Part shown: positions 13,001-37,140 of the stretch, piece after piece
Layout of the letters: each line of letters opens with the position of its first letter
Numbering within the stretch: the first letter of the stretch is position 1
Assembly: GCA_039654915.1 (NCBI GenBank)
Contig: CM077596.1
Coordinates: forward strand, 7,502,001 to 7,566,000
DNA from: Aquilaria yunnanensis
Taxonomy: Eukaryota > Streptophyta > Magnoliopsida > Malvales > Thymelaeaceae
Direction: 5' to 3'
Length of the DNA: 64,000 nucleotides
The notes under the pieces: model-generated
The model's input: the letters and a program-made list of their open reading frames with translations, nothing else
Database searches by the model: none
Told to the model about the DNA's origin: nothing
Position numbers and translations under genes: made by a program

Positions 13001-13420
13001 CCGGATATCATATATGCAGTGAATATGTTGAGTCAATTCATTCAACAACCCATTTTGGAACACTATGATGCGGCCATCAAATTCCTCCGCTACATTAAAG
13101 GAGCTCCAGGGTAAGGTCATATCTTCCCTTACTACAATGAGTTGAAGTTAAAAGCTTCCTCTGACGCAGATTGGGGTGCTTGCCTAAGCACACAATGATC
13201 AATAATAGTCTACTTCACATTACTTGGAGATGCGCCTTTATACTGGCGAACAAAGAAGCAATCGGCAGTAAGTAGGTCTTCTTCTATAGAGGAGGAATAT
13301 AGGTCCACGGCAATAGCAGCAAGTGAAATTTTTTGGCTAAGTGCTCTATTGAAGGACATGACCTTGGATTCTATGCCAACCATGGAACTTTCTTGTGACA
13401 ATCAGGCAGCCATGCACATT
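10096..13420 (+). pseudogene. Ty1/copia polyprotein, 5' part (gag to RNase H)
   Basis: A short gag start (MAEYDRDLES) soon ends in a stop, and most of gag is deleted. From about 10480 the copia order is visible in broken frames. Protease-like: DTEATDHIASQKEL. Pre-integrase: MELWHQRFGHLS. Integrase core: DLVHIDVWGPYHTPSTNG, then TIVDDFTRTVW. Integrase 3' part: KFWGKCILTATHLINRLP. Reverse transcriptase: an early block with RYKVRLIAKGYTQVEG and, at about 12660, FVDDMIVD, the catalytic YVDD-type box. RNase H: SDADWGACLS and EEEYRSTAIAASE. The last codons read SCDNQAAMHI, where the cargo retrotransposon is inserted. Multiple stops and shifts make it non-functional. Confidence 0.85.
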
Positions 13421-13924
13421 TGTTGACACCCAATTTCGTCCGGCCATTAAAATAATTTTAAAAAAAATTAAATAAAAAAAATTAAATAAAAAAAATGTAT
13501 TATTATTATTATTGTTATTATTATTACTAAATTTTTTTTTAATTAGTTTAAAATATATATATTTTTTTAAGATTTGATATATGTGTGTATATGTGTATGT
13601 TTGAAAGAAAAAAAGAAAACTCCATAAAAATGACAAAATTTAAAAGTTTGAGGTAAAAATGACAAAATTAAGAAGTTTCAGGCAAAATTGACAAATTCTG
13701 AAAGTTCCAGGAGCATTTGGCAGTTTGTCACATAAAATTTTGAGCCTGCCGACGTTTTTGGCTCAAATTGACAGAAAACGACAAAATTGTCAAAATCAGA
13801 AGCTTCAGGAACTTATCCAGAGGCTGAGAGACGTAAAGGACTAAAATTGTCATTTTACCAATTTAAGAGATAAGTTTGAAATTTTTTATTAATTTATCCA
13901 TCAACAGTTCAGCTAAACTTCCTC

Positions 13925-13933
13925 TATAAATAG
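13925..13933 (+). promoter_or_regulatory. LTR TATA box
   Basis: TATAAATAG preceded by cctc, about 505 bp into the LTR. The same box in the same context occurs in the 3' LTR and, as TATAAATAG at 61650-61658, in the related LTR near the window end. It is the likely promoter for the element transcript, with the start expected near 13955. Confidence 0.7.
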
Positions 13934-14075
13934 CCCCCCAAATTTTGTGCTGAACACAGAAAAAAATAGCAAAAAAACTTAGAGCTCCGTTTCAAAAAAA
14001 AGAGAAAATTACAGCCCTTAGCCCCAGCCCTCTTCCCTTCTTCCCCAGAAAGCCAAAATTTTTTTTCACTGCTGT

Positions 14076-14078
<3 letters not shown>

Positions 14079-14117
<39 letters not shown>

Positions 14118-14420
14118 GTGCCCCTCGCCGCCCGCCGCCGCCGCCCTACGCCGTTCGCCGCCGCCGTGCCCTCCCCTCGCCGCACCTGCCGCCGCCGCGC
14201 TCGCCCTCGCCGCCAGCCGCCCACGCCGTTCCCCCCGCCTCACCTTCCTTTTTCCCCTTGCACCGCCCCTGCCCGCCGCCGCGCCGCCCCTGCCTGCCGC
14301 CGCGCCGCCCTCGCCGCCGGCCCCCCCCCCGTGCCCCACGCCGTCGCCCCCTGCCCCTGGCCGTGCCGCCAGCTGCCCCTCCCTTTTCCCCCCCTCGCGC
14401 CGTCGTCGTTCTCGTTTCTC
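14079..14420 (+). repeat. (CT)n microsatellite followed by a CpG-rich leader segment
   Basis: Seventeen CT units are followed by about 300 bp made almost only of C and G, rich in GCCGCC-like triplets, inside an otherwise very AT-rich LTR. The related LTR at 61163 lacks it and has only a short cgcgcgcgtccgcg stretch in its place. The segment would be in the transcribed leader. Length of a C-run (10 versus 13) and one G/A change distinguish the two LTR copies here. Confidence 0.8.
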
Positions 14421-14447
14421 AGGAATTCAAAATTTTAATTCAAAAGG

Positions 14448-14523
14448 GTAAACCCTTGTTTCACCCATCATCTTTTCAATTTCTTTCTATTAGGTCACTA
14501 ACCTTTTTATTTTGTCTTTGCAG
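14448..14523 (+). other. Putative 76-nt intron in the LTR leader
   Basis: Donor GTAAAC at 14448 and acceptor CTTTGCAG ending at 14523, with a T-rich tract before the acceptor. The related LTR has GTAAAA at 61858 and CTTGCAG ending at 61933, also exactly 76 nt, although the flanking leader differs. Conserved borders and length in diverged LTRs favour a real intron, but splicing is not shown. Confidence 0.5.
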
Positions 14524-14684
14524 AAAATTAATTAACTAACTCATTTATTTTTTTTACTTGTTTATTTATTTGTTTATTATTGTTATTATTACTAACCTTT
14601 TTTTTTTTTTTGTTATTAGCAACTAACAACTAACTTGCTAATTTTTACTAACCTTTATTATTATTGTTGTTAATAATTAATTAA

Positions 14685-15080
14685 ATTGTCTAACTTTTAT
14701 TTTTGTTGTAATTAATTAACTTAATTAAACTTGGCTAACTTTTATTTATTGTTGTTAATTAATTAACTTAATTAAACTTGGCTAATTTTTATTTATTGTT
14801 GTTAATTAATTAACTTAATTAAACTTGGCTAACTTTTATTTATTGTTGTTAATTAATTAACTTAATTAAACTTGGCTAACTTTTATTTATTGTTGTTAAT
14901 TAATTAACTTAATTAAACTTGGCTAATTTTTATTTATTGTTGTTAATTAATTAACTTAATTAAACTTGGCTAACTTTTATTTATTGTTGTTAATTAATTA
15001 ACTTAATTAAACTTGGTTAATTTTTATTTATTGTTGTTAATTAATTAACTTAATTAAACTTGGCTAACTTTTATTATTGT
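14685..15080 (+). repeat. 47-bp tandem repeat array in the 5' LTR
   Basis: About eight copies of a 47-bp unit recognised by cttggctaa, with phases at 14731, 14778, 14825, 14872 and 14919 and onwards. Degenerate copies continue to about 15240. The same array is in the 3' LTR; the related LTR at 61163 has only simpler ctaac/ttatta repeats there. Confidence 0.85.
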
Positions 15081-15592
15081 TGTTAATTAATTAAATTAAT
15101 TAAATTGTCTAACTTTTATTTTTGTTGTAATTAATTAACTTAATTAACTTGACTAACTTTTTATTATTGTTGTTAACCATTAATTTAATTAAACTTGGCT
15201 AATTTTTATTATTGTTGTTAATTAATTTAATCTAACTTTTACTAACCTTTTTTATTGTTATTAACTAACTAATCCAACTAATCTAACTATATTAATTGTG
15301 CTAACTTTTATTATTATTGTGTTATTAAAGTGGATGGCCAAAAAGCCCCACTTTATTAATTGAATTTTTTTTATGATTAAAAGATAAAAAAAGGAATTTT
15401 ATGTGAATAATTTTCTAAAGGCTAATAAAAATTACTTTTTTTTATTTTGAAACAAAGTTTTTATTCCTTTTAATAAACAAACATAATGAAATAATTCAAA
15501 AATAAAATAAATAAATAAATAAACATAAAACCATTCTTTTAATACATCTTTAAAATTAATAATTAATGAAATAAAAAAATTTAATTAAAACT

Positions 15593-15623
15593 CCATGACC
15601 AAATGATCCGCCAGGATCCATGG
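15593..15623 (+). other. 31-nt LTR hairpin, copy h1
   Basis: Outer stem CCATG/CATGG, inner stem GATCC/GGATC, loop GCCA, and a 7-nt bulge on the 5' side between the stems. It belongs to a family of four per LTR; see 17021-17231. Confidence 0.6.
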
Positions 15624-16280
15624 CTCGGAAATATTTTTAAAATAAAATATATAAATAAATTTTTTTTTTTCTTTATAAAAAATAAAAAAAAAAAACTTTA
15701 GACTAATATATTAATTATCTATTAATATATAATTTTTTTTAGTTTTCTTTATTAAAAAGAATAAAAAGCGTAAAATTTTTGAGTTAATATTTTTCAATAA
15801 TATTTTATTTATTTCTTTTAAAAATATAATTTTTTTTTAGTTTTCTTTATTAATAAAAAGAATGAAAAGAATAAAAATTTTGGGTTAATATGTTATTCAG
15901 TAATATTTTACTTATTAAAAGATATAACTTTTTGTTTCCTTTATAAAAATCTTAATCAAATAATTTCAAAATAATACAAAATAAAACAAAAATAATTGAA
16001 TTTTCTCTTAAATATTTTTGACTTATTGATTAGATATATTTTCAGAAATATAAATTAAAATTAAAAAAAAAAAATCTTTCATCAAACAAAGAAGAATATA
16101 AAAATAAAAATATCAAGACTTTTGTTTTAAAATACATATAAGTTTTCGGTTAAATAATCTTTTATTCCAAAAATAAATTAAATAAATATCAAAACTTTTC
16201 TTCTTTTGTTTAAAATTTTTGATTCTCTTAATAAAAAAAAATAATAAAAAATAAAAATAAAAATAAAAATTTTTTTTAGT

Positions 16281-16376
16281 TCATGGTATATTGGCTGGAA
16301 ACTGTCTCGTGCCCGCTTTTGAGCTGCTTCACCTGGTGAAGAGGGTCTGGCTGAGTAACAACGCCCCGTACCATGA
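16281..16376 (+). other. GC-normal island bracketed by an inverted repeat
   Basis: About 96 bp of balanced composition inside very AT-rich LTR sequence, closed by TCATGGTA (16281-16288) and its perfect reverse complement TACCATGA (16369-16376). Inside, CTTCACC/GGTGAAG (16327-16341) forms a small palindrome. No reading frame. It is present in both LTRs of this element but not in the related LTR at 61163. Confidence 0.5.
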
Positions 16377-16499
16377 TCAAAATTTTTATTTTTAAACTCT
16401 TTAATTCTTTTAAATTAACTTCTTATTAAATAAAAATTAATTATTATTATTATTATTTTTTTTTTTTAATTCTTTTATAAATTGAGTAATCCTTTAAAA

Positions 16500-16915
16500 T
16501 AATAAATATCTTTCATTAAACAAGAAAAACAAAAAAAGTAAACAAGAAAAAAAAGAAAGATAAGAAAAATAAAAGAAAGATAAGAAACAAAAATAAAAGA
16601 AAGATAAGAAAGAAAAGGAAGATAAAAAAAATATAAAAGAAAAGATAAGATAAGAAAAGAAAGAAAGAAAAGACAAGAAAAATAAAAGAAAGATAAGAAA
16701 GAAAAATAAAAGAAAGATAAGATAAAGAAAAAAAGGAAATATAAGAAAAAGAAAAGAAAGATAAAAGAAAGAAAAAGAAAAAGCAAAGAAAGAAAGAAAA
16801 GAATAAAAAAGAAAGAAAAGAAAAGAAATTAAAAGAAATTAAAAAAAAGAAGTAAAAATAAGTAAAAAAAGAAGAAAAAGAAAGAAAGTAAAAAAAGAAG
16901 TAAAAAATATAAAGA
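16500..16915 (+). repeat. Purine-rich tract
   Basis: About 400 bp with almost only A and G on the plus strand (gaaagataag-type units). The long phenylalanine/serine-rich frames on the opposite strand come from this composition and are not genes. Copied in the 3' LTR. Confidence 0.8.
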
Positions 16916-17020
16916 TAAATTTTTTAGTTAGTATTAAAAATCATTCATAAACAAAAAGAATTACCATTTAAAAATTAATTTCATAATAATAAGAATTAAA
17001 TAATTACGATAAATCAATTT

Positions 17021-17231
17021 CCATATCCGGATGATCCGGTAGGATCTACGGTTTGGAAAATATCAAACTTTTTAAAATAAACAAATTAAATAAACAGATA
17101 AAAATCCATATTTTTACAATATGGATAAAATTGTTTAAAATTTCACCAAATTCCGTGTCCAAATGACTCGGCAGAGTCCATGGTTCGGAATCAAAATCTT
17201 CCATGTCCAAATGACTCGGCAGAGTCCATGG
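17021..17231 (+). other. LTR hairpin cluster, copies h2-h4
   Basis: Three 31-nt hairpins with the same layout as h1. h2 (17021-17051) has CCATA/TACGG outside and GATCC/GGATC inside. h3 (17153-17183) has CCGTG/CATGG outside and GACTC/GAGTC inside. h4 (17201-17231) has CCATG/CATGG outside and GACTC/GAGTC inside. Inner stems swap two base pairs between GATCC and GACTC types on both arms. The related LTR carries the same four at 62845-62875, 63608-63638, 63736-63766 and 63783-63813, where the h2 equivalent pairs as CCATA/TATGG. A TCGGAA or TTGGAA tail follows each. Confidence 0.65.
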
Positions 17232-17515
17232 TTCGGAAGTATAAAATTCTATACAAATTAATTTCCAAAAATCCGCATTCAACTAATTCAGTTAAAATTT
17301 CTAGTTTGAAAATTAACTGAATTTTTTTTAAGCAAAGTAAAACAAAATTAAAATCAACTAAGGTGCCAATTTTGGGCGCTATAACAATATTGTTTTAGCG
17401 TAACCGTACTCCCGATCCCCGAACTCTCGCAGACCATATTTTAAGGTATCCAATCGACCTGAGCGAAAACCGATTGGTGGCGACTCCCGAAAACGGCCCG
17501 CACGTTGCCACAGCT

Positions 17516-17534
17516 TGGCGACTCCACTGGGGAC
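17516..17534 (+). other. Primer-binding site
   Basis: TGGCGACTCCACTGGGGAC starts 3 nt after the 5' LTR end and begins with the TGG expected to pair with a tRNA CCA tail. The TGGCGACTCC start fits the arginine-tRNA primer class that I recall for Ogre/Tat elements; the tRNA identity was not checked. Confidence 0.75.
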
Positions 17535-18587
17535 ACGGTTAGTGAGTCGAGCCTAAAACTTGATTTGTTTTGCTTTGCTTATTTTTATGTGGATTTTTTT
17601 TTATGCTATATTTGCTTAGCAAAAACATGCATTATGCATTCACAATATGAAGCTCTATACCCGAGCTTCCTCAAATCGAACACGATTCTTTCTAAGCGGA
17701 ATTGGTGTTGTTGTCCTTGTGAGGCCATGGTCTCCAAGCCTTCACCGGTTTCAAAGTAGCAAAGTAGTGTATTGCCTTCTGAGACGGTTAGTCTCTGCAT
17801 GGGCCCACGAAAAGCTACGACTCGAATTAATCCATTCCTTACATTAACCCTAGAGGGTAAGGAATCGGGCCGTCACTATGATTTAGTGACGGGATTCGGG
17901 AACTATCCCTGGCCTTTTTGATAAGCCACCTTATGCATATAGAATTCCCCACTTAACCATAGAACTGACCATAGAATTTCTACCATTTACCAACACTATA
18001 AGCATGTTATTGTTATGCCATTTTTGTTACCTTATCCTTGGTTTTCTTTGTGTTTTATATTTATGGCTCAGACTTCTTTTCGTAATAGTTCATGTGTTAT
18101 TAATTGATATCTAACTCGTTGTTAACCTTGTTATTCTTTTGTTATACTTCTGTTTTGTACAATTTTTCGTCATGCATCAAAACCACGCACCAAACTGTAA
18201 TAACTTTTGATCTTTCTAAATGACAACTAGAAATCTCGAAGTTCTACGATAGTTGATAATCAAACTCACTTATTGCATGCATCCATTACATCAATCATGT
18301 GCATACAAAGTCTGATAAAAACATAATCTCATTTTGTATTGCATGCATCCATTACATCAATCACGTGCATACAAAGTTTGATAAAACATAATCTCATTTT
18401 GTATTGCACGCATCCATTACATTAAATACATGCATACAAAGTCTGATAAAAACATAATCTCATTTTGTATTACATACATCCATCACATCAATCAATTGCA
18501 TATAAAGTTTAATAAAATGAATCTCACTTTAGAAACGGTAAAATTGGCCATCAACACCGATATCCAGCTCGGCTCCAAATAAGATTA
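17535..18587 (+). other. Untranslated leader of the cargo element
   Basis: No protein signal. A tandem repeat of about 66 bp lies at 18271-18530, listed separately. Confidence 0.55.
18271..18530 (+). repeat. Tandem repeat, 4 x about 66 bp
   Basis: Unit with tgcatccattacat followed by gcatacaaagt, at phases 18271, 18337, 18402 and 18468. Non-coding, between the primer site and gag. Confidence 0.8.
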
Positions 18588-19860
18588 ATGGCAGAACAAA
18601 CCAAAGGACGTCTCATAGATATGAAGTCCAATATAGAAAGTATGGCTGAGCAAATGAAACAGTTAATGGAGTTAGCGACCCAAGTCCCCGTCAATGACCC
18701 ACAAGATCTAACCTATCCTCCCCAATTCACTCAGAACAGGTCTCAGTTCAAGAGAAGCTCTTTCATGACTCAGGTCTATCTGATATCATTCATCTAAGGC
18801 ACAATCCAATTTTTGAAGAAAAGAAGCTCCTGCTTAAAGAAGAAGAGAATACTAAAAAAACTCAAGATCATAGAAAAGAGACTGCGGACCATTGAAAGAG
18901 GCACTTTATCTCTTTTGATGAACAATCTTTGCTTGATACCAGATGTTGTGATTCCCTCATACTTTAAGGTACCTGACTTTGTGAAATATGATGGAACAAG
19001 TTATCCCATCAATTATATTACGCTGTTTCTAAGGAAAATACAACCACTCACAAGAGACGAGAAAGTGTTGATAGCACTTTTTCAAGAAAATCTTACAAAG
19101 TCAGCGCTACAATGGTATCTAAGTCAAGGTCTGAGAAACATCAAAGCCTGGAATGACCTCGTTTAAGCTCTCAATCAGTAACTGTGAGCATGTTATAGAC
19201 TTACCCCTAGATCACCAAATTCTCCAGAATATAGAGAAGAAGGAACAAGAGACCTTTAAGGAATACGCATAAAGGTGGAGACACTTAGCCGCACAAGTTC
19301 AACCATCTATGATAGAAAGAGAATTGATCACCCTGTTTACCCAGGCATTAAATAGACCATTTCATGAAAAAGTAGTTGGGAACACTTCAAGTAGCTTTTC
19401 AAATGTGGTCTTATCTGGAGAAAAGATCGAATTTGGAATCAAAACAGAAAAGCTGGTCGATTCATCAATTGAAGGATGTTTCAATGAAAGAACCGGAGCC
19501 ATCCAAAACATCATCTCCAAGTCCTATGATCCAATACCACTCAAGTTACAAGTGAAAGGATATCCTATTGAGACTGTAATCTTCAAGGCTCCCTCATCAG
19601 TGCCACATACCACTCATGGGAAGAAATGCTACTCAAGTCGATTCAATTTTCACAAGTTACAAACCTGCTACCACCCATACCAACGGTAGCAAAGATCAAG
19701 TAGCCTCCTCTTCCAAGTTGGAATGACCCAAACGCCAAATACAAAATGTTCAATCGGGCATTTAATTGAAAATTGTGTGGCACTAAAACTCAAGGTCCAA
19801 TAGTTGGTCGAGTTTAAATTCCTAGGCCATGATGTGATTGGTAATTGAAAGTGAAGATTT
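18588..19860 (+). pseudogene. Ty3/gypsy gag relic of the cargo element
   Basis: An N-terminal piece (MAEQTKGRLIDMKSNIESM) ends at 18797. In the next piece a retrotransposon gag core is clear: IPDVVIPSYFKVPDFVKYDG, then a stretch ending LQWYLSQGL and AWNDLV. After a stop at 19167 and a frame change the core resumes with EKKEQETFKEYA, a stop, RWRHLAAQVQPSM and VVGNTSSSF. Towards 19730-19800 a decayed zinc-knuckle-like segment (KCSIGHLIENC) is followed by LKLKVQ. At least three interruptions make Gag non-functional. The pattern is that of Tat/Athila-branch gag. No protease or pol sequence follows. Confidence 0.85.
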
Positions 19861-22374
19861 CGAGCTGGAATTACATTGATTTTGGAAGGACTCCAAGTCA
19901 AATCTGACCTAATAGTCCGCACACACTTTTGAATGACAGGGAATCCTTTGAATAAACTTGTATCTTTGAAAGCTTGCAAAAGTAATTTAATAGTAAAAAT
20001 CTCCTAGATTTAGTCCAGAATCTAGGGTGTAGTCTTTGTTAAATGGACACCTGCTATTCTTTTTTTGGTACAACAAAAAGATGTGATGCGTGCATTCTAC
20101 TACTTTCCATTTTTACACTCTTTGCCATTATACTATCCATTATTGCTATCACACTTTACTTTTTCGACAGCCGGTAATTCTTTTTGTTCTCTAACAAAAA
20201 GATGTTGCGTGTGCATTCTACCACTTTTTAATTCCATTATTACATCTACACATTCTACCAATTTTTACCAAAAATTCAATTATTACACCTACACATTCCA
20301 CCACTTCTTACTAAAAATTCCATTTTTACATCCATCTCTCACTCCTTTCCATTATACTATCCATTATTGCCATCATACTTTGCTTTCTAAATGATACTAC
20401 TCGTGGGTGAAAATAAAAAGTTAAGGAAAATTTGATAGTAGTGATCTTGAAAGTGCTGCCAAATCTAGTAAGAAGGATTTCAAACGTTGCACCTCAACCC
20501 TCAAAAGGAATTCACAGTGGTTATCAACATCCTTGCAAGAAGTCCGGGGTTAGCTTCCAAATCCAAAGAAGTTAGCTCTCATATTAAATGGCTTTAATGG
20601 TCTCTCAATTCTCATGAATGCTCAACACAAGCAAAGGTTCTCAGTTCTCTGCAACACAAACTCCAAAAAGAAAGAGAAATTCGTCCCTTCCATCAAAAGA
20701 CAACAAGGGGAAATTCAAAACCAAAAAAGGACTGAGAACAAGCACGAGCAAGCAAGGCCATTTGAGTCATCTCACTTCAAGAGAGTTATCAAGTATGTCA
20801 TCACCATAGCTCACAAAAAAAAAAAAAAGGAAACAAAGAAAAAAAAAAGAAAAGAAAAGAAAAAAGGGCTCAAGTTAGAGCAAAAGAAAGAAAACAAAAA
20901 GTGAGCTATGGATTCTAGACTGAAAACCTGCAAAGGCGGTTTAGAACACAAAAGCAACCCTCAAACCAAGCATGCATAAAGATCACAATAGTTGGGGGGG
21001 CAACAGATAAGGTCTAACTTTCTGGAAAGAGTGGCAAATTGAGGTCATCACTATTGAGTTTTTCACCATAATCAAATTTGCTCACGAGTAGTATTAAAAG
21101 ACCCTTCTCCCACACCACTTAAATTTAACTTTCCTCAGACCTAACATCCTCATTCAGTTAAAAGACTATCATTGTGAATCATGTTTCTACCTTATTTAAT
21201 ACTGCTCACGAGTAGTATTAAAATACCCTTCTTTCACACCACTCAAACTTAACTTTACTCAAACCTAATATTTACCTCTTAATATTATTCTCATTCAGCT
21301 AAAAGACTGCCACAAAAAAAAAAAACATTCAAACTTAACTTTCCTCACACCTAATATTTACCTCTTGATATCATCCGCATTCAGCTAAAAGGCTATCATT
21401 CTGAATCATGTTTCTACCTTATTGCATTGCACAGTTTATGTCTTCGAGTTGGAAAAGAGAAGAATGACAGGATATTTTAATTAAAAACAAAGACCGTAAA
21501 TTACTTTGTCAAGCTTTGAGAATTGATGAAAGTTTTTCTTTAAGGCCAAACCATTATTCATTAATGTATGTAGACTTAAAAGTGAGGAGATAGCTTGAGT
21601 CTTTCTTTAATAAGATGTGGTTCTTGTAAGAAAAATTTACGATCAAGTGCCAGCACAAAGGTCTAGAAATGCTCGACCTTCTGTTAAATCAAAGGCGAGA
21701 TGATACCTTTTATCCACATAAATACCATATTCAGGGGGGCAAAGTAGTCTTTACGAAGCGTAAGAGGAGTACTGCCAACAAAGAAGTTCAATAGACAAGG
21801 GGGCAAGTCTTATGGATCAAAACTTGAGCTCAAGGAAGAGCAATCTTTCAGATTATAACATGGGGATAAGTAAGTGTCGGCACGGCTACAAGAAAATGGG
21901 CAAAGCAGACATTGAAAGTAAAGCCTTTGATGGTATCAAATCCATGACAATGGATGAGTACCCGAAAGAGATATAAATTATGAGGCGGGCCAACTTTAAA
22001 GAAATTGAGGCCAAAATTCAAGAACAAGTCAAAGAAAGGGGATTTTGAAAAGAGTTGGGCTTTTGAGGCAGCGAACAAAAGCTGGAAAGCATAAAGAGAT
22101 TCAATGATAGTCCAAGAAGGCCATCACAAAGAGGATCCAGTAAAACAAAGACATAAAGAACTAGATCCATACAAAAAAAGCCATTAGTTACACATGCTCT
22201 GCATTCATGCATTTCATATCATGCATACATAGCCTTTACATAACAAGGACCAAACGGGAATCACATTCACAGCACAGTTACAACAGTATAAGCTGAGATC
22301 TCAATGTCATCAGTTCTTACCAATCTATCACTGGATACACAGCTAATATGCGGGACCAACCCGCATCAGGAATT
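19861..22374 (+). other. Non-coding interior between gag relic and cargo genes
   Basis: No recognisable protease, reverse transcriptase, RNase H or integrase in any frame. It holds an imperfect direct duplication near 20060-20260 (a caacaaaaagatgt / taacaaaaagatgt block followed by gtgcattctac), an A/G-rich stretch at 20810-20900, and a diverged tandem repeat at 21081-21430 (unit about 124 bp, with ctcacgagtagtatta and accactcaaacttaac-type blocks). Confidence 0.6.
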
Positions 22375-22770
22375 CAAGGATAAAGTAGACAATATTGTCA
22401 AAAGCTTGGCTACCGATTCAATAATCGAGGCTACACCTGGAAGGATACGATTGACGTCAGCTAGTAGTATCCAAGATAAGAGATAGCTATAGCCAAGGAT
22501 AAGGCAGATATCAAAAAATATAAAGTAGACAATATTGTCAAAAGCCTGGCAATTGATTCAATAATCGAGGCTACACCTGGAAGGACAGGATTGATGCCAG
22601 CTTAGCAGCATCCAAGATAAGAGATAGCTGTGGTCAAAGATAAGGCAGACATCAAGAAATATTGTCGTTGAAAATTTGTCAAAAGCGGACAATGGATTCA
22701 ATAATCGAGGACTGGATCGACGTCAGCTCGATGGAATATCCAAGATAAAAAATATCTATCACATCAAAAT
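22375..22770 (+). repeat. Tandem repeat, 3 x 140 bp, upstream of the first cargo gene
   Basis: gattcaataatcgagg occurs at 22415, 22555 and 22695, an exact 140-bp period. Units also share gtagacaatattgtca and atccaagataa-type blocks, and the third is the most diverged. The array ends about 125 bp before the first cargo ATG and could hold promoter or splicing signals. Confidence 0.8.
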
Positions 22771-22857
22771 GAAGTAGGATCTACTTTTCCGGTTAAGTGG
22801 CGGATACGGTACTCCGTGACTCTCAAGTCGGTTCTCTCAGTTGCCCATAATAACTGA

Positions 22858-22892
22858 TTCTTTCCTCTCTTATTTCTTTTACTTCCCTCTAG
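22858..22892 (+). promoter_or_regulatory. Strong 3' splice-site-like tract before the first cargo gene
   Basis: A nearly pure pyrimidine run of about 30 nt ends in CTCTAG, 3 nt before the ATG at 22896. No TATA box is seen close upstream, unlike the other two cargo genes. The arrangement suggests that this gene is expressed from a spliced element transcript, possibly with a leader donor such as 14448. Confidence 0.45.
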
Positions 22893-22895
22893 AAA

Positions 22896-23444
22896 ATGGA
22901 TCCTACTTTTTTTGTCTTGCGAAAGTATTTCCCTTCTCTCCTAATGAACATCCTCAAAAAGATCTACCAAGTTCGCTGTGAACGATTAAGAGTTCTGATG
23001 CACAAAGGAATCCCTGAAGATGTGCCGTGGTTAATCGAAGCCAAGGTCCGTTTGGCAGGTGAAATCCCAGAGGCATTTGTGTCTCACATGCCTAGTATAG
23101 GCAAAAGCTCTTATGCCAAAAAGCGAAGAGCGAAAAGGTTACAAGTCTGCCATAAATGTGGACGGTGGATTTGTAATACTAAATGTCGTTCTTTAGGGAT
23201 GATCTCTGATAATCAAGAAGATAAAATACGATTCATTAAGAATGGCCTGAGTAAGGACTCGTTGGATGATATCCAATTGACTCTTGAGACGCATTCTTGT
23301 GGATCTGTGCAACGTGAACTTCTTGGTTTATGGAGCATTTTTCATGAAGAACGAAACCGTTACAGTCCCGGGAATCTGACTGTAAATGACCCTGTTTGCC
23401 AGCTTGTAAGAAAACTGGATGGAAAGCAAATCCTCGACTCATAG
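22896..23444 (+). CDS. Virus-like cysteine-rich nucleic-acid-binding protein, cargo copy 1
   Basis: An intact 182-aa frame. Residues 8-25 form a hydrophobic/basic helix-like start (LRKYFPSLLMNILKKIYQ). Residues 69-81 are a strongly basic block, GKSSYAKKRRAKR. A zinc-finger-like Cys set follows: C85-x2-C88-x4-C93-x3-C97. Residues 110-118 read KIRFIKNGL. The order GxSxYAxxRRA, CxxC, further Cys, then IRFIKxG resembles the small nucleic-acid-binding proteins at the 3' end of Betaflexiviridae genomes (vitivirus p10 and carlavirus cysteine-rich protein families; Pfam Viral_NABP/Carla_C4), some of which suppress RNA silencing. Residues after about 120 have no match that I know. It is 69 % identical to copy 2 without gaps. 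A plant origin with later viral capture, or chance resemblance of a basic Cys-rich protein, remains possible because no search was run. Confidence 0.75.
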   Translation: MDPTFFVLRKYFPSLLMNILKKIYQVRCERLRVLMHKGIPEDVPWLIEAKVRLAGEIPEAFVSHMPSIGKSSYAKKRRAKRLQVCHKCGRWICNTKCRSLGMISDNQEDKIRFIKNGLSKDSLDDIQLTLETHSCGSVQRELLGLWSIFHEERNRYSPGNLTVNDPVCQLVRKLDGKQILDS

Positions 23445-23668
23445 AAGCCGTTAATGCCGTTACTGGACATAAATCAGGGGAAGATGAGAGCCACAGTCAT
23501 GATTGCTGTACATATAAGCTGTCATTTGTCTTTTCTTTTGACAATAATGAACTTGCTTCTGCAAGTGTAATTAACACATTATCCCTTTCATCACTATAAA
23601 TATGTGTTAGTTATTTCCATTTCCTACAATCACTAATTTCTTTCTTCTCTTAAATACCTCCTTCATCA
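23445..23668 (+). promoter_or_regulatory. Spacer with promoter for cargo copy 2
   Basis: TATAAATA at 23595-23602 lies 67 nt before the ATG at 23669. Upstream is one unit of the repeat expanded before the LOG-like gene: agtcatgattgctgtaca near 23490, then a tgtcatttgtctttt and caataatg block. Gene and spacer appear to have duplicated as one module. Confidence 0.65.
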
Positions 23669-24217
23669 ATGGAGTCTTCTCTTTCCGCCCTACGAAAGTA
23701 TTTTCCTTCCTTCCCAATAAATGTTCTTAAAAAGATTTATCAAGCTAGATGTGAACGATTCAGAGTATTTATGCACAAAGGCATTCCTGATAATGTGCGG
23801 TGGCTAATCGAAGCTAAGGTTCGTTCAGCTGGTGAAGTTCCAGAAGCCTTCTTTCCCCGTATGTCCGGCTTTGGTAAAAGCGCTTATGCCAAAAAAAGAA
23901 GAGCAAAGAGGCTAGGCGTTTGTCATAATTGTGGATGGTGGATTTGCGGCAATAAATGTCGTTCTCCAGGAGTGATCACCAGAAATCGTAATGATAGAAT
24001 AAGATTCATCAAGAATGGCCTACGTAAGGAATCTTTGGATGATATCCTATTAACTTTTGAAACACATTCTTGTGAAATAGTGCAATGGGAAATTATGGAT
24101 TTATGGTGGACTTTCCGTAAAGAACAGAATCGTTACAGTCTTGGAAATCTGACTTTTAATGACCCTGTTTGCCAGTTTGTGAGAAAACTGGATGGGAAGC
24201 AAATCCCCGATTCGTAA
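23669..24217 (+). CDS. Virus-like cysteine-rich nucleic-acid-binding protein, cargo copy 2
   Basis: An intact 182-aa tandem paralogue of the 22896 gene, the same length with no gap. It keeps the basic block GKSAYAKKRRAKR (69-81), all four cysteines (85, 88, 93, 97), the RIRFIKNGL segment (110-118) and the C-terminal NDPVCQ...RKLDGKQ. About 56 of 182 residues differ. Many conserved residues use different synonymous codons, for example Phe ttc/ttt, Ile atc/att, Ala gcc/gct and Arg cgc/aga, so the pair is not recent and seems held by selection. It has its own TATA box and a pyrimidine-rich leader. The likely role is binding nucleic acid, with silencing suppression as an inference from the viral families. 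The residue 90 change (R to W beside the finger) is the most notable difference in the core. Confidence 0.75.
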   Translation: MESSLSALRKYFPSFPINVLKKIYQARCERFRVFMHKGIPDNVRWLIEAKVRSAGEVPEAFFPRMSGFGKSAYAKKRRAKRLGVCHNCGWWICGNKCRSPGVITRNRNDRIRFIKNGLRKESLDDILLTFETHSCEIVQWEIMDLWWTFRKEQNRYSLGNLTFNDPVCQFVRKLDGKQIPDS

Positions 24218-24219
24218 AA

Positions 24220-24800
24220 GGCATCGAAGCCGTCCCTGGACGTAAAACCAGTAGAAAACGTGAACTACGGTCATGACTACTGTACAGGCTAGTTGTCACT
24301 TTTCAAAATTTTTCCTTCTCTTCTGACAAATGATGTACCTGCTCCTGACGTGATCCACAGTCACGACTACTGTACAGGCTAGTTGTCGTTTTTGAAAATT
24401 TTCCTTCTATTTCAAGAATAATGTACCTATTCCTGACGTGAGCAACAGTCACGAATACTATACATGCCAACTGTCGCTTTTGAAATTTTTCTCCCCTTTT
24501 GGTAATAATGTATCCACTCCTGACGTGAACCAAAGTCATGATTACTGTACATGCTAGCTGTCACTTTTGAAATTTTCCTTCTCCTTTGGCAATAATGTAC
24601 CCACTCCTGACACGGACTACTGTATATAGCTGCCACTTTTGAAATTTTCCTTCTCTTCCAACAATCACGTACCTACTCCTGACATAAGCTACAGTAGTGA
24701 CTACTGTACATGCTAACAGCTATTTTGAAAATTTTCCTCCTCTTTTAACGATAGTGTACCCATAACTGACCAGAGTCATACTCGTGACTACTGTGAATAG
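24220..24800 (+). repeat. Seven-unit tandem repeat forming the LOG-like gene's upstream region
   Basis: The core actgtaca or a close variant recurs at 24278, 24368, 24457, 24544, 24618, 24703 and 24788, spacing 74-90 bp. Most units also have a cctgacgtga-like TGACG motif, a cttttgaaattttcctt block and a caataatgtacc block. TGACG repeats resemble the as-1/ocs enhancer type used by plant viral and T-DNA promoters; that role is inferred. One unit also lies between the two virus-like genes. Confidence 0.75.
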
Positions 24801-24856
24801 CTGGCAATAATGTATCCATTCTTGAAAATAAAATTATTGCCTTATCTCTTCATCTC

Positions 24857-24864
24857 TATAAATA
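24857..24864 (+). promoter_or_regulatory. TATA box of the LOG-like gene
   Basis: TATAAATA followed by tatcc, 40 nt before the ATG at 24897. A start site about 30 nt downstream would leave a very short leader and places the in-frame upstream ATG at 24810 outside the transcript, so 24897 is chosen as the start. Confidence 0.6.
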
Positions 24865-24896
24865 TATCCTCTTTTCTCACAAGGGTAAGGATAGGA

Positions 24897-25526
24897 ATGG
24901 AGAAAACCCTAACTCGTAAATCCCGAAGTATTTGTGTATTTTCTGGGGCTTTTCCTGGAAAAGATGAAGAGTATTTAAAGGCAGCCAACCATTTGGGTAG
25001 AGTATTAGCTGAGCGAAAAATACATTTAGTTTATGGAGGAGGTAGTGTCGGATTAATGGGAGGCGTAGCATCAGCAGCATCTTTAGGAGGAAGTCAAGTT
25101 CTAGGCATTATCCCAGGACCTTTGAAGTTTATTTCTGGGGGCACGATCGGAGAGGAGCTAGTGGTCAAAAATCTGCAAGAACGTGTGCTACAAATGCTTT
25201 TAAATGCTGATGCTTTCATCGCTCTACCCGGCGGTTTTGGTACATTAGGAGAAGTCTTCCAAATCGCTTCCATGGCCCAACTTAATTTGCATAAGAAACC
25301 CATTGGGCTTTTAAATGTTAACAATTTCTTTACAGGTCTGATAGCTTTTATGGATTATGCTATGCAGAAGAATTTCATATCAAGAGTGGCACGGCGAATC
25401 ATAATATCCGCAACAACTGCTGAAGAATTGCTAGATAAAATACAAGCTTTTGTTCCTGAACCTGATCCAGCAATGATTCAGATAGACTGGACACGACAGT
25501 CTTTCCCGACCAGTTCACTCTCATAA
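24897..25526 (+). CDS. LOG-like cytokinin riboside 5'-monophosphate phosphoribohydrolase, intronless cargo gene
   Basis: A 209-aa frame, full length for the family. LOG enzymes remove ribose 5'-phosphate from cytokinin nucleotides to give active free bases. Visible motifs: ICVFSG (12-17, Rossmann-like start), LVYGGGSVGLMG (44-55), the hallmark PGGFGTLGE (111-119) with catalytic-type Glu119, Arg96 at the place of the conserved active-site Arg, and KPIGLLNV (134-141). Differences from typical plant LOGs: the stretch around 92-100 (NLQERVLQML) keeps Arg but not the usual Lys after it, and residues 70-90 have a shortened, altered loop. An extended in-frame start at 24810 exists but lies upstream of the TATA box. 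Plant LOG genes that I know have several introns, so this single-exon copy fits capture through RNA. Its location inside a young retrotransposon, after two virus-like genes, is unusual. Activity is unproven. Confidence 0.88.
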   Translation: MEKTLTRKSRSICVFSGAFPGKDEEYLKAANHLGRVLAERKIHLVYGGGSVGLMGGVASAASLGGSQVLGIIPGPLKFISGGTIGEELVVKNLQERVLQMLLNADAFIALPGGFGTLGEVFQIASMAQLNLHKKPIGLLNVNNFFTGLIAFMDYAMQKNFISRVARRIIISATTAEELLDKIQAFVPEPDPAMIQIDWTRQSFPTSSLS

Positions 25527-26090
25527 TGGTCCTCTACTCACCCTGTTGAAGTATTGTGGAAGAAAGAAGCGATCTGATCCGTTTTTCTTGTCCTTTAGTT
25601 TTAATTATCAGCATTTTCTTTCGTATTTCAGTTTTTCTTTTCAGGGAATTTCGTTATCTTATAAGATAGTTTCGTCCATGCTGATATTAAAACCATGGGA
25701 CAATGCCTTTAGGTTGGAATGGCTGAGTAAAGAGTAATTTTTATTACTCTAGAAACGCATCCTATTAGGTCTACTAGGCATAACATTTTGGGGTAGTTAA
25801 GCTTTAACCTTATTTGGATGACATATCTCACAAGGGAATCTCTATTTACTGAAGAAAATATTAGATGAACCTTGGATATTGATTCCAAACATCCGTTCCC
25901 TTTACATAATTTGTCAGTGTTATTGTCATCATCAAGATTCACTCATCTTATCGAAGTTTAAATTTTTGCACTCACCTATTATGAAAATTCACACTTTCGA
26001 AGAAAATTATTCCAATTTCAATTGCTTTCATATAAATTTCGCTCGAGGTCCTAAGGAAAGCTCCTTAGCCTCAAAATCAATTTTCATCAT
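25527..26090 (+). other. 3' region of the LOG-like gene
   Basis: No further gene seen. T-rich sequence follows the stop, then AT-rich DNA running into the tandem arrays. No clear oligo-A tail or flanking duplication marks the LOG-like gene as a separate insertion. Confidence 0.45.
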
Positions 26091-26235
26091 CGGGGTTTTA
26101 AGGATGGAACCTTTGCCTCGAAAACAATCAATTTTCACCATCGGGGTTTTAAGGATGGAACCTTTGCCTCGAAAACAATCAATTTTCATCATCGGGGTTT
26201 TAAGGATGAAACCTTTGCCTCGAAAACAATCAATC
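26091..26235 (+). repeat. 51-bp tandem repeat, about 3 copies
   Basis: cggggttttaaggatg recurs at 26091, 26142 and 26193, an exact 51-bp period. A degraded earlier unit starts near 26041. Because 51 is a multiple of three, both strands show repeated peptide frames, which are artefacts. Confidence 0.9.
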
Positions 26236-26995
26236 ATTCAGTCCATCTTACAACGATAGAACCTTTCCTATCGTTAGAGGTTCTAAGGATCTTTCCTTAA
26301 CCTCAAACAAACAATCAATCATTCAGTCCATCTTACAACGATAGAACCTTTCCTATCGTTAGAGGTTCTAAGGACCTTTCCTTAAACCTCAAACAAACAA
26401 TCAATCATTCAGTCCATCTTACAACGATAGAACCTTTCCTATCGTTAGAGGTTCTAAGGACCTTTCCTTAAACCTCAAACAAACAATCAATCATTCAGTC
26501 CATCTTACAACGATAGAACCTTTCCTATCGTTAGAGGTTCTAAGGACCTTTCCTTAAACCTCAAACAAACAATCAATCATTCAGTCCATCTTACAACGAT
26601 AGAACCTTTCCTATCGTTAGAGGTTCTAAGGACCTTTCCTTAAACCTCAAACAAACAATCAATCATTCAGTCCATCTTACAACGATAGAACCTTTCCTAT
26701 CGTTAGAGGTTCTAAGGATCTTTCCTTAACCTCAAACAAACAATCAATCATTCAGTCCATCTTACAACGATAGAACCTTTCCTATCGTTAGGGGTTCTAA
26801 GGACCTTTCCTTAAACCTCAAACAAACAATCAATCATTCAGTCCATCTTACAACGATAGAACCTTTCCTATCGTTAGAGGTTCTGAGGACCTTTCCTTAA
26901 ACCTCAAACAAACAATCAATCATTCAGTCCATCTTACAACGATAGAACCTTTCCTATCGTTAGAGGTTCTAAGGACCTTTCCTTAAACCTCAGAG
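26236..26995 (+). repeat. 85-86-bp tandem repeat, 9 copies, each with two hairpins
   Basis: acgatagaacc recurs at 26253, 26338, 26424, 26510, 26596, 26682, 26767, 26853 and 26939. Each unit has a perfect inverted repeat AACGATAG/CTATCGTT around an 8-nt loop, followed by a second one built on GAGGTT/AACCTC and AAGGA/TCCTT arms. Tandem repeats just before the 3' LTR are known in Tat/Ogre elements and can seed satellite DNA. Confidence 0.92.
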
Positions 26996-27084
26996 TTTAG
27001 GCGGCGAGAAGGTTTTCAATGCCTAGCTAAGCTGGACGAAATTTGGTAACTAACTTTGCATACATCATGTCCCATGAAGCATGC

Positions 27085-27097
27085 AAAGGGGGGCAGC
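27085..27097 (+). other. Polypurine tract of the cargo element
   Basis: AAAGGGGGG (27085-27093) then CAGC directly before the 3' LTR. The related LTR at 61163 is preceded by AAAAGGGGGGCAGC in the same position. Confidence 0.85.
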
Positions 27098-27752
27098 TGT
27101 TGACACCCAATTTCGTCCGGCCATTAAAATAATTTTAAAAAAAATTAAATAAAAAAAATTAAATAAAAAAAATGTATTATTATTATTATTGTTATTATTA
27201 TTACTAAATTTTTTTTTAATTAGTTTAAAATATATATATTTTTTTAAGATTTGATATATGTGTGTATATGTGTATGTTTGAAAAAAAAAAAGAAAACTCC
27301 ATAAAAATGACAAAATTTAAAAGTTTGAGGTAAAAATGACAAAATTAAGAAGTTTCAGGCAAAATTGACAAATTCTGAAAGTTCCAGGAGCATTTGGCAG
27401 TTTGTCACATAAAATTTTGAGCCTGCCGACGTTTTTGGCTCAAATTGACAGAAAACGACAAAATTGTCAAAATCAGAAGCTTCAGGAACTTATCCAGAGG
27501 CTGAGAGACGTAAAGGACTAAAATTGTCATTTTACCAATTTAAGAGATAAGTTTGAAATTTTTTATTAATTTATCCATCAACAGTTCAGCTAAACTTCCT
27601 CTATAAATAGCCCCCCAAATTTTGTGCTGAACACAGAAAAAAATAGCAAAAAAACTTAGAGCTCCGTTTCAAAAAAAAGAGAAAATTACAGCCCTTAGCC
27701 CCAGCCCTCTTCCCTTCTTCCCCAGAAAGCCAAAATTTTTTTTCACTGCTGT

Positions 27753-27794
<42 letters not shown>

Positions 27795-30700
27795 GTGCCC
27801 CTCGCCGCCCGCCGCCGCCGCCCTACGCCGTTCGCCGCCGCCGTGCCCTCCCCTCGCCGCACCTGCCGCCGCCGCGCTCGCCCTCGCCGCCAGCCGCCCA
27901 CGCCGTTCCCCCCGCCTCACCTTCCTTTTTCCCCTTGCACCGCCCCTGCCCGCCGCCGCGCCGCCCCTGCCTGCCGCCGCGCCGCCCTCGCCGCCGGCCC
28001 CCCCCCCCCCGTGCCCCACGCCATCGCCCCCTGCCCCTGGCCGTGCCGCCAGCTGCCCCTCCCTTTTCCCCCCCTCGCGCCGTCGTCGTTCTCGTTTCTC
28101 AGGAATTCAAAATTTTAATTCAAAAGGGTAAACCCTTGTTTCACCCATCATCTTTTCAATTTCTTTCTATTAGGTCACTAACCTTTTTATTTTGTCTTTG
28201 CAGAAAATTAATTAACTAACTCATTTATTTTTTTTACTTGTTTATTTATTTGTTTATTATTGTTATTATTACTAACCTTTTTTTTTTTTTGTTATTAGCA
28301 ACTAACAACTAACTTGCTAATTTTTACTAACCTTTATTATTATTGTTGTTAATAATTAATTAAATTGTCTAACTTTTATTTTTGTTGTAATTAATTAACT
28401 TAATTAAACTTGGCTAACTTTTATTTATTGTTGTTAATTAATTAACTTAATTAAACTTGGCTAATTTTTATTTATTGTTGTTAATTAATTAACTTAATTA
28501 AACTTGGCTAACTTTTATTTATTGTTGTTAATTAATTAACTTAATTAAACTTGGCTAACTTTTATTTATTGTTGTTAATTAATTAACTTAATTAAACTTG
28601 GCTAATTTTTATTTATTGTTGTTAATTAATTAACTTAATTAAACTTGGCTAACTTTTATTTATTGTTGTTAATTAATTAACTTAATTAAACTTGGTTAAT
28701 TTTTATTTATTGTTGTTAATTAATTAACTTAATTAAACTTGGCTAACTTTTATTATTGTTGTTAATTAATTAAATTAATTAAATTGTCTAACTTTTATTT
28801 TTGTTGTAATTAATTAACTTAATTAACTTGACTAACTTTTTATTATTGTTGTTAACCATTAATTTAATTAAACTTGGCTAATTTTTATTATTGTTGTTAA
28901 TTAATTTAATCTAACTTTTACTAACCTTTTTTATTGTTATTAACTAACTAATCCAACTAATCTAACTATATTAATTGTGCTAACTTTTATTATTATTGTG
29001 TTATTAAAGTGGATGGCCAAAAAGCCCCACTTTATTAATTGAATTTTTTTTATGATTAAAAGATAAAAAAAGGAATTTTATGTGAATAATTTTCTAAAGG
29101 CTAATAAAAATTACTTTTTTTTATTTTGAAACAAAGTTTTTATTCCTTTTAATAAACAAACATAATGAAATAATTCAAAAATAAAATAAATAAATAAATA
29201 AACATAAAACCATTCTTTTAATACATCTTTAAAATTAATAATTAATGAAATAAAAAAATTTAATTAAAACTCCATGACCAAATGATCCGCCAGGATCCAT
29301 GGCTCGGAAATATTTTTAAAATAAAATATATAAATAAATTTTTTTTTTTCTTTATAAAAAATAAAAAAAAAAAACTTTAGACTAATATATTAATTATCTA
29401 TTAATATATAATTTTTTTTAGTTTTCTTTATTAAAAAGAATAAAAAGCGTAAAATTTTTGAGTTAATATTTTTCAATAATATTTTATTTATTTCTTTTAA
29501 AAATATAATTTTTTTTTAGTTTTCTTTATTAATAAAAAGAATGAAAAGAATAAAAATTTTGGGTTAATATGTTATTCAGTAATATTTTACTTATTAAAAG
29601 ATATAACTTTTTGTTTCCTTTATAAAAATCTTAATCAAATAATTTCAAAATAATACAAAATAAAACAAAAATAATTGAATTTTCTCTTAAATATTTTTGA
29701 CTTATTGATTAGATATATTTTCAGAAATATAAATTAAAATTAAAAAAAAAAAATCTTTCATCAAACAAAGAAGAATATAAAAATAAAAATATCAAGACTT
29801 TTGTTTTAAAATACATATAAGTTTTCGGTTAAATAATCTTTTATTCCAAAAATAAATTAAATAAATATCAAAACTTTTCTTCTTTTGTTTAAAATTTTTG
29901 ATTCTCTTAATAAAAAAAAATAATAAAAAATAAAAATAAAAATAAAAATTTTTTTTAGTTCATGGTATATTGGCTGGAAACTGTCTCGTGCCCGCTTTTG
30001 AGCTGCTTCACCTGGTGAAGAGGGTCTGGCTGAGTAACAACGCCCCGTACCATGATCAAAATTTTTATTTTTAAACTCTTTAATTCTTTTAAATTAACTT
30101 CTTATTAAATAAAAATTAATTATTATTATTATTATTTTTTTTTTTTAATTCTTTTATAAATTGAGTAATCCTTTAAAATAATAAATATCTTTCATTAAAC
30201 AAGAAAAACAAAAAAAGTAAACAAGAAAAAAAAGAAAGATAAGAAAAATAAAAGAAAGATAAGAAACAAAAATAAAAGAAAGATAAGAAAGAAAAGGAAG
30301 ATAAAAAAAATATAAAAGAAAAGATAAGATAAGAAAAGAAAGAAAGAAAAGACAAGAAAAATAAAAGAAAGATAAGAAAGAAAAATAAAAGAAAGATAAG
30401 ATAAAGAAAAAAAGGAAATATAAGAAAAAGAAAAGAAAGATAAAAGAAAGAAAAAGAAAAAGCAAAGAAAGAAAGAAAAGAATAAAAAAGAAAGAAAAGA
30501 AAAGAAATTAAAAGAAATTAAAAAAAAGAAGTAAAAATAAGTAAAAAAAGAAGAAAAAGAAAGAAAGTAAAAAAAGAAGTAAAAAATATAAAGATAAATT
30601 TTTTAGTTAGTATTAAAAATCATTCATAAACAAAAAGAATTACCATTTAAAAATTAATTTCATAATAATAAGAATTAAATAATTACGATAAATCAATTTC

Positions 30701-31187
30701 CATATCCGGATGATCCGGTAGGATCTACGGTTTGGAAAATATCAAACTTTTTAAAATAAACAAATTAAATAAACAGATAAAAATCCATATTTTTACAATA
30801 TGGATAAAATTGTTTAAAATTTCACCAAATTCCGTGTCCAAATGACTCGGCAGAGTCCATGGTTCGGAATCAAAATCTTCCGTGTCCAAATGACTCGGCA
30901 GAGTCCATGGTTCGGAAGTATAAAATTCTATACAAATTAATTTCCAAAAATCCGCATTCAACTAATTCAGTTAAAATTTCTAGTTTGAAAATTAACTGAA
31001 TTTTTTTTAAGCAAAGTAAAACAAAATTAAAATCAACTAAGGTGCCAATTTTGGGCGCTATAACAATATTGTTTTAGCGTAACCGTACTCCCGATCCCCG
31101 AACTCTCGCAGACCATATTTTAAGGTATCCAATCGACCTGAGCGAAAACCGATTGGTGGCGACTCCAGAAAACCCGACGTTGCCACA
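27098..31187 (+). repeat. 3' LTR of the cargo element
   Basis: 4090 bp. By eye it differs from the 5' LTR at about 4 substitutions (one in gaaagaaa/gaaaaaaa near the start, gtcg/atcg after the C-run, catg/cgtg in hairpin h4, c/a near the 3' end), a 3-base longer C-run, a 1-base shorter T-run and a 4-base deletion near the end. All internal LTR features of the 5' copy recur here. It is followed by ACATT and the resumed copia frame. Confidence 0.93.
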
Positions 31188-31192
31188 ACATT

Positions 31193-36506: not shown

Positions 36507-37140
36507 TTTTGTAATATTCTTTTTAACATGTATGGTATCATCTTTTTAGCCCACGTTCTCCGTATAGTTAGTTTTTCAGTTTTTTTTTTCTCGAACCCAG
36601 TTACGGGCCTCATAGTCAACTCACGTCCCCAAGTTTGGTTTCAATTAACCAATATATCCCCTCCACCCACTGCGCCACTCATCGACAATCATGCCTTAGT
36701 TACAGAAATTAACTATATATTTAACATGCCTTTCCATTTTTTTTTTTTTTGCTTCCAAATATTTACAGTTCATCTGCCTCTGTAGCAACAAACACTGTGA
36801 ACCAGCAGGCATTTTGTGCTTCACAAGGCACCACACTCAACAACCACAATTTCATATCCTTCAGGCATTCCTTACACCAATTATAGGTTTCAATACCTCA
36901 ACATCAATTCTTATTTTTGTAATATTGAAGATAGTGTTCTCAATAACTGAATAGATATAGTTACTTGATCTTTAAGTTATCTTGTCTCTGTAGATGTGTT
37001 TATTGTATAAACATTTACTTGTTTACAGAACTCATGTAACCTGTATAAATAATACACACGAATCACGTTGAGGTGAGGGAAGCCAAATACTTGTTTTGTT
37101 TACATGGTATCAGAGCCACATTTCCTGACAAACGTCAATA

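Follow-up and report, generated by a model that had tools for sequence, protein, structure and literature searches.

The window analysed here is a stretch of 64,000 nt from Aquilaria yunnanensis, and its own genome, which was searched with its genes, comprises 842 Mb. A single long terminal repeat (LTR) element spans positions 13421-31187 of the window and carries two genes for predicted nucleic-acid-binding proteins (NABP1 and NABP2), followed by a gene for a predicted LOG-like phosphoribohydrolase. The features of the element, in window coordinates, are as follows.

13416..13420: 5' copy of the target site duplication, ACATT
13421..17512, + strand: 5' LTR, 4092 bp, with CTATAAATA at 13924
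17516..17534, + strand: primer binding site TGGCGACTCCACTGGGGAC, 3' of the 5' LTR
18588..19824, + strand: gag relic in several frames, placed by its match to the intact gag of a sister copy
22896..23444, + strand: NABP1, 182 aa, carlavirus NABP-like, with a C-x2-C-x4-C-x3-C motif after a basic run
23594..23602, + strand: CTATAAATA before NABP2
23669..24217, + strand: NABP2, 182 aa, tandem relative of NABP1
24258..24783, + strand: array of ~87-bp units before LOG
24856..24864, + strand: CTATAAATA before LOG
24897..25526, + strand: LOG-like phosphoribohydrolase (predicted), 209 aa from the likely start, frame open from 24810
26075..26992, + strand: tandem arrays of 51-bp and 86-bp units, between LOG and the 3' LTR
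27085..27097, + strand: polypurine tract AAAGGGGGGCAGC, 5' of the 3' LTR
27098..31187, + strand: 3' LTR, 4090 bp, with CTATAAATA at 27601
31188..31192: 3' copy of the target site duplication, ACATT

The element shows all the hallmarks of a plant LTR retrotransposon, namely LTRs, a 5-bp duplication, a primer site, and a purine tract. The LTR pair is 99.7% identical (alignment of 4095 columns), and a second alignment of the pair, 4087 columns long, differs by 6 mismatches and 3 gap events. The near identity of the LTRs, the ACATT copies on both sides, the primer site, and the purine tract confirm the proposal of a preliminary description of this DNA that the locus is one young LTR element, and the coordinates place three open frames (NABP1, NABP2, and LOG) between the gag relic and the 3' LTR, as had also been proposed. 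The primer site TGGCGACTCCACTGGGGAC presumably fits tRNA-Arg, and we take the gag of the element family to be Ogre-like. The use of a tRNA-Arg primer is ascribed to Ogre elements in the available sections of PMC9289625.

Both NABPs exceed the Pfam cut-offs for the families PF05515 (Viral_NABP) and PF01623 (Carla_C4), with E-values of 6e-7 and 1e-6 for NABP1, and of 4e-5 (24.1 bits against a cut-off of 23) and 1.8e-4 (21.9 against 20.9 bits) for NABP2, which lies barely above them. All 39 aligned NABPs keep the basic run and the four cysteines, and the profile scores together with this motif give both proteins the signature of a viral NABP, in agreement with their earlier description as virus-like. 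NABP1 and NABP2 are identical at 126 of 182 residues, with a ratio of nonsynonymous to synonymous substitution rates (dN/dS) of 0.20 (0.12-0.31) at a dS of 0.89. A protein search with NABP1 returned 116 relatives, none of which is named as a viral protein, and all those with an organism in their name are from plants (Xanthoceras, Orobanche, Citrus, Acer, Striga, and Diplodiscus). No relative of NABP or LOG was found in viral contigs, and NABP1 was without a match in phage records. The NABP cluster P0066 represents 109 sequences. A frame at 24169-24330, which overlaps the stop of NABP2, matches residues 127-183 of the Citrus gene model P0305 (E-value 5e-6), hinting at conserved DNA or at spliced NABP-LOG fusion products that would run past the NABP stop. 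In one copy elsewhere in the genome (L007) an NABP1-type gene lies directly 5' of LOG in the place of NABP2, and the NABP tandem therefore varies among copies.

The resemblance of NABP to viral NABPs could indicate that the genes belong to an integrated plant RNA virus, a relative of the carlaviruses, rather than to the cargo of a retrotransposon. Ten of the 19 viral structure matches listed for the NABP model are carlavirus- or trichovirus-like virus proteins, none of them significant, which also points in this direction; nine are named silencing suppressor or nucleic acid binding protein, and the grouping of the ten by virus family is our assumption. However, the 13 interior frames scanned contain no viral replicase, coat, or movement family, and the genes lie between LTRs together with gag, and in other plants beside a Ty3/gypsy pol, which makes an integrated virus hardly credible.

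The LOG frame is open from 24810 to 25526, and alignment with its relatives places the likely start at 24897. The protein scores 106.3 bits against Pfam PF03641 (E-value 1.7e-30, cut-off 27) and 149.6 bits against TIGR00730 (cut-off 96.35), which places it in the LOG family and supports its earlier designation as LOG-like. The motif PGGFGTLGE, a form of PGGxGTxxE, is kept in the window protein, LPGGFGTLGE is present in 12 of 14 copies of the family, and the structure model fits the Arabidopsis structure 2a33 with an E-value of 4e-23. A protein search returned 7407 relatives, of which the best 120 are listed; 40 of these 120 are from Reevesia pubescens (counted by eye), and 99 of them have LxLxL at the C-terminus (e.g. 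P0124, P0137, and P0202).

A tree was built from 64 LOG rows, comprising 43 element-type LOGs, 19 canonical plant LOGs, and two Arabidopsis structures. All 43 element-type LOGs, including that of the window, lie on one side of a 100/100 branch, opposite the 21 canonical ones, with the groups fixed after two Orobanche rows first filed as host LOGs (P0339 and P0323) fell on the element side. All nine rows in which LOG is joined to NABP or pol are on the element side as well. Proteins annotated as cytokinin-activating enzymes may thus be transposon cargo, as exemplified by P0339 of Orobanche minor. Among the tree rows a basic run near the C-terminus is present in 38 of the 43 element-type and in none of the 19 canonical LOGs, and a C-terminal LxLxL tail, which we take to be a form of the EAR repression motif, in 32 of 43 compared with 0 of 19. 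The PGGxGTxxE motif is present in 35 of the 43 element-type and in all 19 canonical proteins; because it is missing in eight of the former, five of which are from Citrus, some element-type LOG relatives may be inactive.

A query joining NABP and LOG returned 2731 matches, of which the best 120 are listed. Of 342 fetched proteins, 39 match both NABP and LOG, with NABP first in all 39. Since the searches select relatives of the pair, 39 of 342 is no frequency, and it is the order of the two that matters. These gene models are from Citrus x changshan-huyou (18), Orobanche gracilis (11), O. hederae (3), O. minor (2), Acer yangbiense (3), Rhamnella rubrinervis (1), and Diplodiscus trichospermus (1). 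The parasitic genus Orobanche is rich in them (16 of 39, among P0237-P0254). A Pfam scan of ten proteins identified four in which the cargo is joined to Ty3/gypsy domains:

P0262, Citrus sinensis: reverse transcriptase, RNase H, and integrase zinc domain, then NABP
P0267, Citrus sinensis: integrase, then NABP
P0282, Populus euphratica: protease match below cut-off, then NABP
P0286, Primulina eburnea: RNase H and integrase, then LOG

In P0262, P0267, and P0282 the viral NABP families score below cut-off, yet the proteins match NABP1 of the window at ~60%. The integrase tails of these pol-cargo proteins are presumably Athila-like. The same cargo therefore follows pol in other elements and is carried here by one in which no pol was found.

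The preliminary description had likened the cargo to captured pieces of host genes. A recent capture by a single family, as in maize Bs1, would be consistent with LOG being a plant-type enzyme encoded in a single open stretch, as expected after reverse transcription, given that host LOG genes have introns. Because the pair recurs as NABP then LOG in seven named plants, and because the element-type LOGs form a group apart from the 21 canonical ones, we reject a recent host capture and consider this explanation very unlikely; a capture, if from a host, must have been old. The NABP-LOG cassette as a whole is, by the same gene models and tree, apparently old.

To count the copies in the genome, lists of the best matches were scored from first-look candidates, which were themselves unscored. 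With LOG of the window as query, 149 of the 150 scored places are stop-free and 98-100% identical (best 150 of 4039 candidates), and with a potato LOG as query, 148 of 150 are stop-free (best 150 of 3543 candidates). The two lists share eight places (by eye), giving ~289 stop-free LOG places. The rows found with the potato query are single stretches with 45-49% identity to it, and we take them to be element LOGs too, as intron-split host LOGs would probably score lower. With NABP1 as query, 148 of the 150 scored places are stop-free (best 150 of 8178 candidates); NABP1 candidates outnumber those of LOG by 2.02 to 1, as would be expected with two NABPs for each LOG, which is a hint only because the candidates are unscored. 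The family holds hundreds of unbroken LOG copies.

The cargo was also assessed in copies chosen without regard to it, using a 501-bp query that covers the end of the 5' LTR and the leader (best 40 scored of 2408 candidates). The place of LOG (2.8 kb) was read in 20 of these leader-picked copies, ranks 2-22 minus rank 6. LOG is present in 19 of the 20, with none seen in L043, and its frame is open in 16 and broken in L033, L048, and L049. The distance from the start of the leader to LOG is 7.3-7.6 kb in 11 of the 19 copies and 7.7-8.5 kb in the other eight, compared with 7.4 kb in the window. The prospect, raised in the preliminary description, that other copies with these LTRs might lack the frames is contradicted by these data, and the cassette is family-level cargo rather than a one-off. 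Ten LOG-bearing copies were fetched at their ends, and both outer LTR ends are seen in five. Each of these five has its own perfect 5-bp duplication (CTCTT, CATAG, ACCTC, ATAAT, and ATCAT), so that cargo copies do have the distinct target duplications sought by the preliminary description, and within each copy the two LTRs show 99.08-99.96% identity over the compared parts. In each of the other five at least one end was not found in the fetched DNA, and these copies are evidence neither way; in C7:82487928 the apparent 5' end is that of a neighbour.

Selection on LOG and NABP2 was estimated from the leader-picked copies. LOG has a dN/dS of 0.086 (5-95% of 60 codon bootstrap rounds, 0.049-0.133) among 14 copies, which are the window and 13 of the 16 open leader-picked ones; the open copies L031, L038, and L040, whose starts misfit the pattern, were left out, as were the broken L033, L048, and L049. 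For NABP2 the value is 0.265 (codon bootstrap 5-95%, 0.188-0.399) among seven copies (six and the window), and for gag it is 0.354 from one intact pair. LOG is therefore the most constrained frame measured. Copies picked by similarity of LOG give a LOG dN/dS of 0.018, a biased value that was not used in place of the leader-picked sample; in the same LOG-picked set the value for NABP2 is 0.310 (7 copies) and for NABP1-type genes 0.315 (4 copies). The window element represents a real, amplified, and constrained family.

The high identity of the LTR pairs (99.1-99.96% in the five other copies and 99.7% in the window), which indicates that the copies are young, would also be expected if the cassette were a passive hitchhiker on a successful element, intact only through youth and of no benefit to the element. 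The low dN/dS of LOG (0.086) and NABP2 (0.265) in copies chosen regardless of cargo argues against this, as does the fact that the tandem NABPs have stayed open to a dS of 0.89 while the gag of the window copy has decayed, and we regard a hitchhiking cassette as unlikely. The cargo could instead serve mainly the host, or a truce between host and element, as a source of small RNAs or a domesticated supply of cytokinin. Hundreds of similar copies would presumably form a rich small-RNA source, but constraint at the protein level is not expected of a pure one, and the five two-ended copies have moved, each with its own target duplication. Service to the host is in our view distinctly improbable.

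The state of gag differs between the window and its sister copies. In the window gag is decayed and lies in several frames: the first 298 residues of an intact sister-copy gag align to 18588-19464 in two frames with ~58% identity, and a later piece, up to 19824, has 49% identity to it. Two sister copies (L029 and L030) have an intact gag of 583 aa, which exceeds the cut-off of PF03732 at 4e-11 and 6e-12 and is thereby of Ty3/gypsy type. The gag relic named in the preliminary description is thus real in the window but is not a relic family-wide. In the stretch read in L029 and L030, from the 5' LTR to NABP2, gag is followed by the NABP1 frame, then by the first part of NABP2, and there is no pol match. 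At C6:20433193 (L030 and L008) both NABPs and LOG are open. No pol family was found in the 13 interior frames of the window element that were scanned, out of 37 frames of at least 62 aa, and the pol-bearing relatives of the cargo align to nothing in the window element except the cargo, which bears out the earlier view that the element has no pol. As far as it was read (three copies without a pol match), the family appears to be gag-only. With gag as the only element protein and no pol between 5' LTR and NABP2, L029 and L030 qualify as TR-GAG elements; the window copy, its gag broken in several frames, does not have the intact gag of that class. The window copy has apparently lost gag with its cargo still open.

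On its + strand the window contains seven copies of the sequence CTATAAATA. Each LTR of the element has one and a related LTR after 61163 another, one precedes NABP2, one precedes LOG, and the remaining two are located elsewhere. The TATA of the copy before NABP2 is 74 bp upstream of the NABP2 start, and that of the copy before LOG is 40 bp upstream of the likely LOG start. A single unit similar to the 87-bp type is present between NABP1 and NABP2 (local score 55, where 100 shuffles gave at most 32). The LOG spacer contains three TGACGT, a count reached in 0 of 500 shuffles, although the repeat makes the three non-independent. This arrangement suggests that NABP2 and LOG may have separate promoters.

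The reading we favor, and to which we give roughly even chances, is that the window holds a young member of a large LTR family, three copies of which were read and lack pol, and that the conserved NABP-LOG cassette of this family probably switches host genes and raises active cytokinin, such that element-bearing cells divide. Anatomy, copy numbers, intact frames, and low dN/dS are the observed part of this explanation, and from them we infer the steps that follow. A related full element would supply reverse transcriptase and integrase in trans, and TATA-bearing promoters of the element's own would drive NABP2 and LOG. Plant LOGs release active cytokinin in one step, and the element LOG would free cytokinin from the riboside monophosphate, favoring cells that divide and resemble those of a meristem, where a new insertion can be passed on. 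NABP would go to the nucleus and act, like the cysteine-rich protein of carlaviruses, as a transcription activator and a weak silencing suppressor. According to the available text of PMC7588395, p12 of chrysanthemum virus B, a carlavirus NABP, activates transcription in the nucleus and suppresses silencing in the cytoplasm, and that of PMC12172455 describes it as a weak suppressor that induces hyperplasia. Acting together, NABP and LOG would, as the preliminary description also surmised, move cells towards division with silencing weakened and the host less defended.

Several observations weigh against this explanation. LOG scores 98.7 bits against the NCBIfam equivalog NF058542, far from the cut-off of 300, in a comparison in which three element relatives score 79.6-117.1 and which was run without a canonical plant LOG as control. 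The LOG of the window family has no LxLxL tail, with 13 of 14 copies ending in SSLP or SSLS and one running on to another end. The NABP structure model is poor (pLDDT 60), too poor for a fold comparison, and no viral structure matched this model below an E-value of 0.001, the best viral match being at 0.12. Upstream of NABP1 there is neither a TATA box nor a repeat (scores of 29 compared with 31, and 23 compared with 28), and in the sister copy C7:1245673 the usual start of NABP1 is without ATG. The dN/dS values among copies reflect master lineages and open frames only, that of gag coming from a single pair. No pol partner was found at the places read, beyond which no search was made.

It is also possible, though we consider it doubtful, that plant retrotransposons in general share a mobile proliferation cassette, made up of an RNA-virus-type activator and a cytokinin-activating enzyme, which would pass between lineages and be selected even without gag and pol, as a counterpart of transforming retroviruses that works through a meristem hormone. 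If the cassette works as proposed, plant retrotransposons would steer a growth hormone of the host, beyond hiding from it, which would account for the persistence of some of the extra frames of Ty3/gypsy elements.

Elsewhere in the window, a related LTR spans 61163-64000 and ends 88 bases beyond the window (L051:1-88), with ~88-93% identity in the best pieces. It is preceded by the purine tract AAAAGGGGGGCAGC and is therefore a 3' LTR with hardly any interior left. It was considered as part of a full partner element and rejected, given the preceding purine tract, the absence of a gag, NABP, or LOG match nearby, and the end 88 bases past the window. The open reading frame at L051:5914-6384 presumably resembles a prolyl oligopeptidase, and we take the broken frames at 37129-45804 to be copia-type gag and pol.

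Two Athila-like elements with similarity to LOGL4 were reportedly described by Steinbauerova et al. in 2011. The statement of the preliminary description that no family with this cargo is described holds for the pair, which is unreported in the literature searched, but not for LOG, as a YgdH/LOG domain in Ty3/gypsy consensuses of Citrus and Populus is in print (PMC9289625, section 12, as far as available). Searches of the open-licence literature brought up no report of the NABP-LOG pair, of NABP in plant elements, or of selection on the pair in a pol-less element. Neumann et al. set a lower limit of 250 codons for the extra frames in their survey (PMC6317226, available part), a threshold at which reading frames with 182 or 209-217 codons would be missed. 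LTR elements that are gag-only and have extra frames are an already known kind, as is LOG in Ty3/gypsy elements; what surprises here is the fixed NABP-LOG pair, its presence on unlike elements, and the constraint on LOG even though the family yielded no pol.

When the family is compared with TR-GAG elements, in which GAG is the sole element protein and one of which has been observed to transpose (PMC8704663, in the part available), LTRs, an intact gag in two sister copies, the lack of a pol match, and young insertions are common to both, whereas the family here has three cargo frames and its window copy has 4.1-kb LTRs and has lost gag. The Citrus and Populus elements share a LOG-type domain inside a plant Ty3/gypsy element, but the available section of PMC9289625 mentions LOG alone, in contrast to the fixed-order NABP and LOG pair without pol found here. 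The orchid Ty3/gypsy elements with an AlkB RNA demethylase, described in the same source, are likewise large, Ogre-related elements with a lineage-fixed accessory enzyme frame; the enzyme is a different one, and according to the sections available the orchid elements retain pol. With the cysteine-rich NABP of carlaviruses (p12; PMC7588395 and PMC12172455, available parts) the element proteins share the basic run, the zinc-finger region, and the families PF05515 and PF01623, but they are encoded by a retrotransposon, are ~180 aa long, and are followed by LOG. Finally, the predicted fold and the PGGxGTxxE motif are common to the plant LOG enzymes At2g37210 and At5g11950 and the element LOGs, which in contrast form a separate group in the tree and are encoded in a single open stretch, most of the element relatives having the basic run and LxLxL tail, the latter of which the window family lacks.

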